From: Acidobacteriota bacterium | Lineage (GTDB): Bacteria; Acidobacteriota; Terriglobia; Acidiferrales; 2-02-FULL-67-57 | Reading direction: 5' to 3' | Assembly (NCBI GenBank): GCA_022571295.1 | Contig: JACZYA010000005.1 | Coordinates: 1 to 54,626, forward strand | Length of the DNA stretch: 54,626 bases | Shown: positions 12,976 to 36,397 of the stretch, one piece after another | Position numbering within the stretch: the first letter of the stretch is position 1 | Layout: each line of letters starts with the position of its first letter | Translations under genes and position numbers: made by a program | The notes under the pieces: model-generated | The model's database searches: none | Seen by the model: the letters and a program-made list of their open reading frames with translations, nothing else | Told to the model about the DNA's origin: nothing

Positions 12976-13024
12976 TTCTACATTTCCCACCAAACGAAAA
13001 CTGTGGCTTCTTTCTCCCGGACTT

Positions 13025-13143
13025 GGTAGTGGGTCTTTTTGAAAATGGGAAGCTCACGCCGAGCCCCGTGGCACCTGCCACGGGGCGCTTGTGCCGCTTT
13101 TCTGCCCGGCGGCAAATCAATACCGTGAAGCTACCCCACTACC
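13025..13143. mobile_element. MITE-like element, GGTAGTG family, copy 1
   Basis: 119 bp beginning GGTAGTGGGTCTTTTT (13025-13040) and ending CACTACC (13137-13143). Inside, CACGCCGAG leads into a hairpin whose 9-bp stem CCCCGTGGC/GCCACGGGG closes the loop ACCT (13064-13085). The ends and the CAC-CCGAG plus hairpin match the copies at 17466-17605 and 36224-36352. It is more decayed than they are. Confidence 0.6.
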
Positions 13144-13221
13144 CCGGACCTGCCTGTCTTGACCCTCCTGTTTCTTTGGAATAGAGTGAACCGTTTAGAG
13201 GCGTTGGATCAACAATTCTCG

Positions 13222-17408: not shown

Positions 17409-17465
17409 TGGTATCTCTACCAGTTGTAGCATAGTAGGTGGGCCGTAGAAGTGAGGAGACGAATG

Positions 17466-17605
17466 GGTAGTGAGCCAATTTCACGCCGGCCTCTCGATTC
17501 CGGCACTCTCTCCTCTTACGTCCAACCCGGTGGCCCCTGCCACCGGGAAGGCATCCCTTTCCCAGCGGCTGGGGCCGCTGGGTTGGACAAAATTAACGCA
17601 CTACC
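17466..17605. mobile_element. MITE-like element, GGTAGTG family, copy 2
   Basis: 140 bp with 16-bp terminal inverted repeats matching at 13 positions (17466-17481, GGTAGTGAGCCAATTT; 17590-17605, AAATTAACGCACTACC). Inside an outer stem GTCCAACCC/GGGTTGGAC (17520-17528/17580-17588) are two hairpins: CCCGGTGGC-CCCT-GCCACCGGG (17526-17547) and CCCAGCGGC-TGGG-GCCGCTGGG (17561-17582). The 38-bp spacer 17482-17519 contains CGATTCCGGCACTC, related to the spacer of the 36-kb copy in inverse orientation. No protein is encoded. Confidence 0.75.
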
Positions 17606-17660
17606 GACGAAGAGGCGGGATCACCCGCTACAACATCAACCCGTGGGAGCGGAGGAAACT

Positions 17661-20606: not shown

Positions 20607-20695
20607 ATGTCTTAACCCCGCACCGATCCCCCAGGCCCCTAAATCCCACGGGCGCAAGCCCGCGGGCTGAACCTTGCAGGTTCGCTCAAGAATTG
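20607..20695. repeat. Degenerate GGTAGTG-family element copy
   Basis: TGTCTTAACCCCGCACCGAT then CCCCCAGGCCCCT matches the left half of the 36-kb element base for base over long stretches. The second hairpin survives as CCCACGGGC-GCAA-GCCCGCGGG with one mismatch, and TTCGCTCAA matches the right spacer. The first hairpin has lost its 3' arm. Confidence 0.55.
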
Positions 20696-20697
20696 GT

Positions 20698-20752
20698 GGG
20701 GCAGACATTCTTGTCTGCCTCTCCCGCGCCGCGCAGACAAGAATGTCTGCGC
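20698..20752. repeat. GCAGACATTCTTGTCTGC inverted pair
   Basis: GGCAGACATTCTTGTCTGCC and GCGCAGACAAGAATGTCTGC face each other across about 11 bp. Each is itself near-palindromic. They lie in the 299-bp gap between ddl and the small membrane protein; no gene is seen in the gap. Confidence 0.65.
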
Positions 20753-20887
20753 CACTGTACTCTTGAACGCTTCAAGCACCGAGCCCCGGCACAACTGTTT
20801 GCACCGGCTGGCTCCATTTGCTACGCTTTCCGTGGAGTGATTACGTTTCTTTCCCGGCGCGCACGCTGGAAAAGAGCCGCGCAGACT

Positions 20888-36208: not shown

Positions 36209-36223
36209 GGCAGGCTGCTCGCT

Positions 36224-36352
36224 GGTAGTGTCTTAATTTCACACCGAGCCCCCAGGCCCCTGCCTGGGGGAAGCGAAAATCCCTGCGGCGGGGGCCGCAG
36301 GGCTCGGTGTGATTTGGGCCGAGTTCCGAATCGCTCAAATTAAGACACTACC
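36224..36352. mobile_element. MITE-like element, GGTAGTG family, copy 3, best preserved
   Basis: 129 bp with perfect 16-bp terminal inverted repeats (36224-36239, GGTAGTGTCTTAATTT; 36337-36352). An inner perfect 12-bp stem, CACACCGAGCCC/GGGCTCGGTGTG (36240-36251/36300-36311), encloses two hairpins: CCCCCAGGC-CCCT-GCCTGGGGG (36249-36270) and CCCTGCGGC-GGGG-GCCGCAGGG (36281-36302). A 25-bp spacer (36312-36336) lies on the right. The whole could fold as a three-way junction in RNA or single-stranded DNA. No protein is encoded. Confidence 0.8.
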
Positions 36353-36397
36353 CGCTCGCTCGGGAAACGACGCTGAGGCCAGCACCATCCTGGGCCT

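Follow-up and report, generated by a model that had tools for sequence, protein, structure and literature searches.

A REPIN core with atypical tags in IS1-type MITEs: a probable composite mobile element of Acidobacteriota

The window, a stretch of 54,626 nt that makes up contig C94 of an Acidobacteriota draft genome (G000; 3.24 Mb, 287 contigs), harbours three elements with GGTAGTG...CACTACC ends and one decayed relative, all of them at the positions given in the initial annotation (Table 1). In the window the copies are intergenic. Two features were absent from that first description. The copy at 36224 has terminal inverted repeats of 16 bp (GGTAGTGTCTTAATTT), and a search for target duplications, which had been recommended, revealed 8 bp at each of the three bounded copies (7, 6 and 7 of 8 positions identical). 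A tagged-hairpin pattern matched the window nine times with up to two mismatches (six matches are exact), versus 1.4 +/- 1.2 matches expected.

The first hairpins of the three bounded copies (CCCCCAGGC-CCCT, CCCGGTGGC-CCCT and CCCCGTGGC-ACCT) each have their exact complement, as described before. A second hairpin of 9 bp had also been reported for each of them. This is right for CCCTGCGGC and CCCAGCGGC, which are intact, but the third sequence (CCCACGGGC) belongs to the decayed copy, where an A.C mismatch leaves 8 of 9 pairs and the tag is a different one (TCAG). The copy at 13025 contains only one whole hairpin; in comparison to L063, its second hairpin is without loop, 3' arm and tag, corresponding to a loss of about 22 bp. 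The outer stems CACACCGAG/CTCGGTGTG and GTCCAA/TTGGAC do pair, but the CCC that had been counted there is the foot of the hairpin. With these corrections to the second hairpins and the outer stems, the first observation is borne out in large part.

Table 1. Elements and their parts in the window, and RAYT genes with REPs on both sides
Feature	Position	Strand	Remarks
IS1-type MITE, subfamily A, complete REPIN core	36224..36352	+	ends; fold; other near-identical copies
Left terminal inverted repeat GGTAGTGTCTTAATTT	36224..36239	+	same as end of transposase-bearing element L148
Right terminal inverted repeat of 36224 copy	36337..36352	-	
Left target duplication of 36224 copy, TGCTCGCT	36216..36223	.	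7/8 match to right one
Right target duplication of 36224 copy, CGCTCGCT	36353..36360	.	
REP unit 1 of 36224 copy: tag CGAG + hairpin CCCCCAGGC-CCCT-GCCTGGGGG	36245..36270	+	exact pattern match
REP unit 2 of 36224 copy, inverted: tag CGAG + hairpin CCCTGCGGC-CCCC-GCCGCAGGG	36281..36306	-	exact pattern match
IS1-type MITE, C-type REPIN core	17466..17605	+	
Target duplications of 17466 copy, GACGAATG/GACGAAGA	17458-17465 / 17606-17613		6/8 identical
REP unit of 17466 copy: tag CCAA + hairpin CCCGGTGGC-CCCT-GCCACCGGG	17522..17547	+	
Inverted REP unit of 17466 copy: tag CCAA + hairpin CCCAGCGGC-CCCA-GCCGCTGGG	17561..17586	-	
IS1-type MITE, subfamily B, second hairpin truncated	13025..13143	+	
Target duplications of 13025 copy, CCGGACTT/CCGGACCT	13017-13024 / 13144-13151		7/8 identical
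REP unit of 13025 copy: tag CGAG + hairpin CCCCGTGGC-ACCT-GCCACGGGG	13060..13085	+	
Decayed copy: subfamily A left half fused to TCAG-tagged REP	20607..20695	+	BLAST E 0.001
REP unit of decayed copy: tag TCAG + hairpin CCCGCGGGC-TTGC-GCCCGTGGG, one mismatch	20645..20670	-	
RAYT L293	G000, C256		REPs on both sides
RAYT L294	G003 (another genus), C222		REPs on both sides

A BLAST search of G000 with the copy at 36224 returned a dozen strong relatives, and L002 and L003 are 98% identical to this copy across the full length. The end pattern GGTAGTGNNNNANTT occurs 48 times in G000, as compared to two occurrences of the reversed control. Pairing of the ends led to about 26 elements of 119-287 bp with duplications of 8-9 bp, the proportion with duplications being somewhat favoured since end pairs were accepted by end similarity or by duplication. 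Exact target duplications include CGAAATTG, CAACTCAC, CTGTCTTT and GTGGTTTC, and exact 8/8 duplications are far beyond chance. Three core types are found in G000, A (CCCCCAGGC/CCCTGCGGC), B (CCCCGTGGC/CCCGGCGGC) and C (CCCGGTGGC/CCCAGCGGC), and none of the short paired-end elements of this genome is a REP-free MITE. The elements L004 and L010 are chimeras of subfamilies A and B, and the REPIN core of L009 (1461-1591) is inverted relative to the MITE arms when compared to L001 (1501-1629), which shows exchange between copies.

The gap that is syntenic to the location of the 36224 copy is without the element in G001, G002 and G004. This is consistent with a lineage-specific insertion and answers the earlier call for an empty site in part, the sequence in these three gaps being too diverged for the target to be discerned and for a base-exact empty site. 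The contigs C93, C101, C112 and C141 of G000 begin inside element copies or at most about 70 bp from them, and thus further copies, perhaps also an autonomous partner, may be missing from the assembly.

Judged from its sequence, the outer layer of these elements is an IS1-type MITE. The 16-bp terminal inverted repeats, the short length (119-287 bp), the lack of coding capacity and the target-site duplications of 8-9 bp, several of them exact in G000, are MITE traits. The MITE-like nature proposed initially is supported by these ends and duplications, by the genome-wide copies and by elements in relatives that combine these ends with a transposase. Elements of 330-3172 bp delimited by ends of this kind are found in relatives of the same order; exact 8-bp duplications accompany many of them, and one such element, L111, contains a partial IS1-like transposase. 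A search with this transposase revealed relatives in 19 of 61 genomes; many of them sit in elements of 1.8-3.2 kb with near-perfect ends and exact duplications of 8-9 bp. The end of L128 (GGTAGTGGGTCAGTTT) is identical to the typical subfamily B end, and that of L148 (GGTAGTGTCTTAATTT) to the subfamily A end, each at 16 of 16 bases. The transposases of L128, L148 and L138 passed the cut-off of PF03400 (DDE_Tnp_IS1) with moderate matches, while with the NCBIfam IS1 model E values of 1e-18 to 1e-19 were obtained for the transposases of the relatives, yet below the cut-off. IS1595 was rejected as the source of the ends, because PF12762 (DDE_Tnp_IS1595) is absent from G000 and the same-ended elements of relatives carry an IS1-type enzyme.

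IS1 begins with GGTGATG and makes target duplications of 8-9 bp. The elements described here share with the IS1 family the DDE_Tnp_IS1 transposase (PF03400), the GGT..TG start of the end and the 8-9 bp duplication. They differ as a divergent branch with a single-frame transposase and passenger genes, which scores below the NCBIfam IS1 cut-off. An IS1-type transposase was not matched in G000, a draft assembly that is broken inside repeats, and therefore we infer that the MITE is mobilised in trans.

The IS1-like elements L110, L111, L125, L138, L141 and L148 of relatives (1.8-3.2 kb) have passenger genes enclosed by perfect ends. On visual inspection, those of L110 resemble a HigB/HigA-like toxin-antitoxin pair in which the antitoxin is extended, and that of L111 a Fic-type protein. 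Further, L113 and L114, located at both ends of contig C188 of G003, are inverted copies of each other over at least about 860 bp, and each of them holds a 35-bp head-to-head pair of GGTAGTG ends. The inverted ends of this contig are either genuine, as a terminal repeat, or produced by the assembly.

The inner layer is an inverted pair of tagged palindromes, each with the tag YSAR, the 9-bp stem CCCNNNGGC and a loop of 4 nt. In relatives the layout is the same: tag, 9-bp hairpin, spacer, inverted hairpin and inverted tag. A constant 5' tag with a hairpin in many copies, and inverted pairs with a spacer, are traits of REPs and REPINs. The tags seen are CGAG, TGAG, TCAG, TCAA, CCAG and CCAA, while the canonical guide tag GT[AG]G was not found among them. 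Because of this difference we do not claim membership in the canonical REPs and file the core as an atypical-tag variant; the REP tags described so far are GT[AG]G and CGTC (PMC3733652, PMC6006769). A covariance model built from 14 cores gave 54 matches in G000, 2 in G001, 50 in G002, 29 in G003, 13 in G004 and 40 in G005, counted per strand, so that near-symmetric cores often match twice; the 75 genomes of family f3 yielded one marginal match only. Similarly, a hairpin pattern in which the stem is fixed at the outer and inner triplets only occurs 99, 6, 81, 44, 18 and 46 times in G000 to G005, respectively, and at most once per family f3 genome. Its reversed control had zero matches in G000-G005 and one in G016.

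Y1 transposases occur frequently in the order. In 20 neighbourhoods that were read, two genes are bordered at both ends by REPs that are YGAG-tagged or of a similar CCCGGTGGC type, L293 in the genome of the window and L294 in another genus. Their products are 67% identical and reach 94.8 and 93.2 bits, respectively, with the NCBIfam model REP_Tyr_transpos (cut-off 80), and L293 matches TnpA-REP 4ER8 with an E value of 5e-5. At the positions aligned with Trp94, Glu100 and Arg104 of the E. coli protein, which were named in connection with the GTAG guide (PMC6006769), L293 and L294 have Leu, Val and Met/Thr, the residue numbers being only indicative due to the weak alignment to 4ER8. The Trp is kept in all 13 other aligned RAYTs, one of which, L288, is also without the acid and the Arg. 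The Y motif of L293 and L294 is YIHANP (class 2), and the class 3 motif YV[VI].EQ was not found in them. Both open frames continue upstream through REP sequence, which reads as SPVAPATG repeats (three in L294), so that REPs are located in or just before the coding start of these RAYTs.

A RAYT flanked by TCAR/CCAR-tagged hairpins, the tag class of the 17466 copy, was not found among the 20 neighbourhoods. G002, G004 and G005 have many REPINs and no RAYT with YGAG-REP flanks was seen in them; two of the genomes are about 60% complete. Many other RAYT genes have other hairpin classes as flanks, as would be the case with a separate REP for every RAYT. It is tempting to speculate, with slightly less than even confidence, that an acidobacterial RAYT lineage reads a YGAG guide via changed guide-contact residues, and that its REPINs are spread both by the HUH enzyme and, as a MITE core, by a DDE transposase.

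Taking both layers together, one element of 130 bp combines two kinds of mobile DNA that are unrelated to each other. We consider it quite probable that this is a composite non-autonomous mobile element, with an IS1-type MITE outside and a RAYT-substrate REPIN inside. A DDE transposase of the IS1 family would recognise the 16-bp ends in trans, insert the MITE as double-stranded DNA and duplicate 8-9 bp. The two 5'-tagged REP hairpins in mirror orientation would be substrates of a RAYT, an HUH single-strand transposase; candidates are the RAYTs of G000 and of a relative whose genes have REPs of this tag class at their flanks. The founders of REP families would be well-paired hairpins, folding being needed by the mobile master copies. 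One REPIN would then have become the core of an IS1-type MITE in this lineage and have been amplified with it. Points against this reading are that no IS1-type transposase was found in G000 and that the PF03400 matches in relatives are moderate, that REP-flanked RAYTs were seen for the CGAG/TGAG tag and not for TCAR/CCAR, that G002, G004 and G005 are rich in REPINs without such a RAYT being seen, and that G000 yielded no REP-free MITE. Most likely, REPINs persist as single-stranded DNA substrates of RAYTs, and captured copies would need no function at their sites, in agreement with the stem decay within families. In summary, the initial observation is real and mostly explained by known kinds of elements, with unusual stacking and an atypical REP tag.

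The compensatory changes between the copies had been attributed to selection on a folded molecule. The folding z-values against dinucleotide shuffles are -11.2 (36224), -8.3 (17466), -4.3 (13025) and -0.4 (decayed copy). The three free middle pairs of the stem are all Watson-Crick in 123 of the 149 variable-stem units listed, mostly from G001-G004, while after shuffling of the 3' arms 21 +/- 4 units were fully paired in the middle (largest value 35 in 2000 shuffles); since relatedness inflates such arm shuffles, it is the count of distinct perfect stems that carries weight, and the units listed contain twelve different perfect middle triplets. In the 14-row alignment of cores, 10 of 27 pairs are changed on both sides. 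No shuffle reaches that number, and the signal was destroyed when the partners were slid. Thus covariation, the absence of which would have spoken against the initial annotation, is present. However, wherever a hairpin stem is changed on both sides, the difference is one between A, B and C. Within A and within B the changes are one-sided and several break a pair, which does not support a selected structure at each site, so that selection on the folded molecule is backed between families only. This pattern can be understood if only a folded hairpin is a substrate: each REP family then starts well paired, and full compensation is found between families and decay only within a family.

Alternatively, the compensation could be unselected and result from hairpin-templated repair, in which strand switching perfects palindromes, or from the exchange of whole hairpins between copies. 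Such processes could act together with the mechanism proposed above, and the chimeras L004 and L010 as well as the inverted core in L009 versus L001 are in line with them. Nevertheless, we regard this explanation as rather unlikely: mutated copies within a family stay uncorrected, and the tag and the CCC...GGC ends are constant while the middle of the stem varies, as expected for recognition by a protein.

Still less probable, in our view, is a plain IS1-type MITE, with the hairpins as its own interior and the stand-alone cores of relatives as MITEs that have lost their ends. In its favour, 31 of 48 CGAG/TGAG cores in G000 are located between IS1-type ends (random positions, 2%), and in G002 and G003 such ends also enclose three cores of type C (L187, L188 and one of L220/L224). 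In G002-G005, however, 0 of 43 CGAG/TGAG cores have both ends, and in G002 and G003 the flanks of the cores differ right up to the tag. Single tagged hairpins (L013, L015, L018) and the RAYT genes flanked by REP units also argue against it. Since CGAG/TGAG cores occur without GGTAGTG ends in relatives, the core is a separate entity. Several G005 copies have common flanking sequence beyond the tag, and thus another carrier may exist in that genome.

A structured RNA that is under selection at every site, as a cis-regulatory element or terminator, is very improbable despite the strong fold, the covariation between families and the intergenic location of the copies in the window, since no Rfam family reached its threshold, no T run follows the hairpins, stem changes within families are one-sided and often pair-breaking, and the copies bear transposon ends and target duplications. 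The comparison with Rfam had been suggested as a search for an already described family; no family attained the gathering threshold, and the sub-threshold matches, mainly to animal microRNA precursors, are those of any good hairpin. Between folded RNA and single-stranded DNA, which were both proposed at first, a single-stranded DNA substrate of a RAYT is therefore preferred. Like the Rfam families including the Acidobacteria motifs, the elements are intergenic, folded and covarying. The suggestion of an undescribed family holds only in the sense of a variant, as REPINs, RAYTs and MITEs are already known kinds.

With the REP/REPIN and RAYT (TnpA-REP) system, the 'REPtron' (PMC3116915, PMC2817692, PMC6006769, PMC8266576), the core shares the short 5'-tagged hairpin, the high copy number, the intergenic location, the inverted pairs with a spacer, a RAYT gene flanked by its own hairpins, and stems which vary between families. 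It differs in the tag, which is YGAG (or TCAR/CCAR) instead of GT[AG]G, in a RAYT without the Trp/acid/Arg set at the GTAG-contact positions, and in that many copies are inside an IS1-type MITE. For acidobacterial TnpA-Y1 enzymes of class 3, hairpins with the foot CnGA are reported, with about 600 copies in Solibacter usitatus (PMC6006769). The phylum, the atypical foot resembling C-Y-G-A and the high copy number are common to both, but the enzymes described here have YIHANP (class 2) and not YV..EQ, and the C-type tags misfit CnGA.

From IS1-type MITEs the elements differ by a core that is a REPIN and not a deleted IS interior. Several folded bacterial MITEs have TA or a similar target duplication. 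The folded MITEs ERIC, NEMIS/Correia, RUP and Nezha (PMC3733652) likewise have 70-300 bp, terminal inverted repeats, a strong internal fold and no coding capacity; their ends and duplications are different, and the core described here consists of REPs that also live alone. A REPIN serving as core of an IS1-type MITE was not encountered in the open-licence literature, which is weak evidence of absence.

The distinction is important for several reasons. What looks like a single folded element is resolved into two layers, and the compensatory changes are explained without RNA. Further, a guide tag that has changed together with the guide-contact residues is a natural experiment on how RAYTs choose their REPs. 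Last but not least, if REPINs indeed ride in a DDE-type MITE, a population of REPs would be able to spread without depending on its own transposase.

Other hairpins were observed in the same genomes. A canonical REPIN adjoins the decayed copy at 20696-20755 of the window (GTGG-GGCAGACA-TTCT-TGTCTGCC with an inverted GTGG-CGCAGACA partner). CAGACA hairpins flank RAYT genes in G002, G003 and G004, and probably at C249 of G000. At least six hairpin classes, often inverted, flank the RAYT genes L288-L307 (GGCGGGGC, GGCACGGC, GTCAACCC, GGCAGACA and others), the genomes of which are one clade with many REP-RAYT pairs. In addition, second-level palindromes, e.g. CTGTCCTGAGCAGAGTCGAAGGGC or TGCCTACCGCAGGCAGGCC, are present in the REP loops of L035, L039, L046, L059, L062, L066, L067, L214, L223, L224 and L227. 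They are located at the GGC/GCC loop boundary with an apparent trinucleotide duplication, and other repeats may insert preferentially into REP loops.
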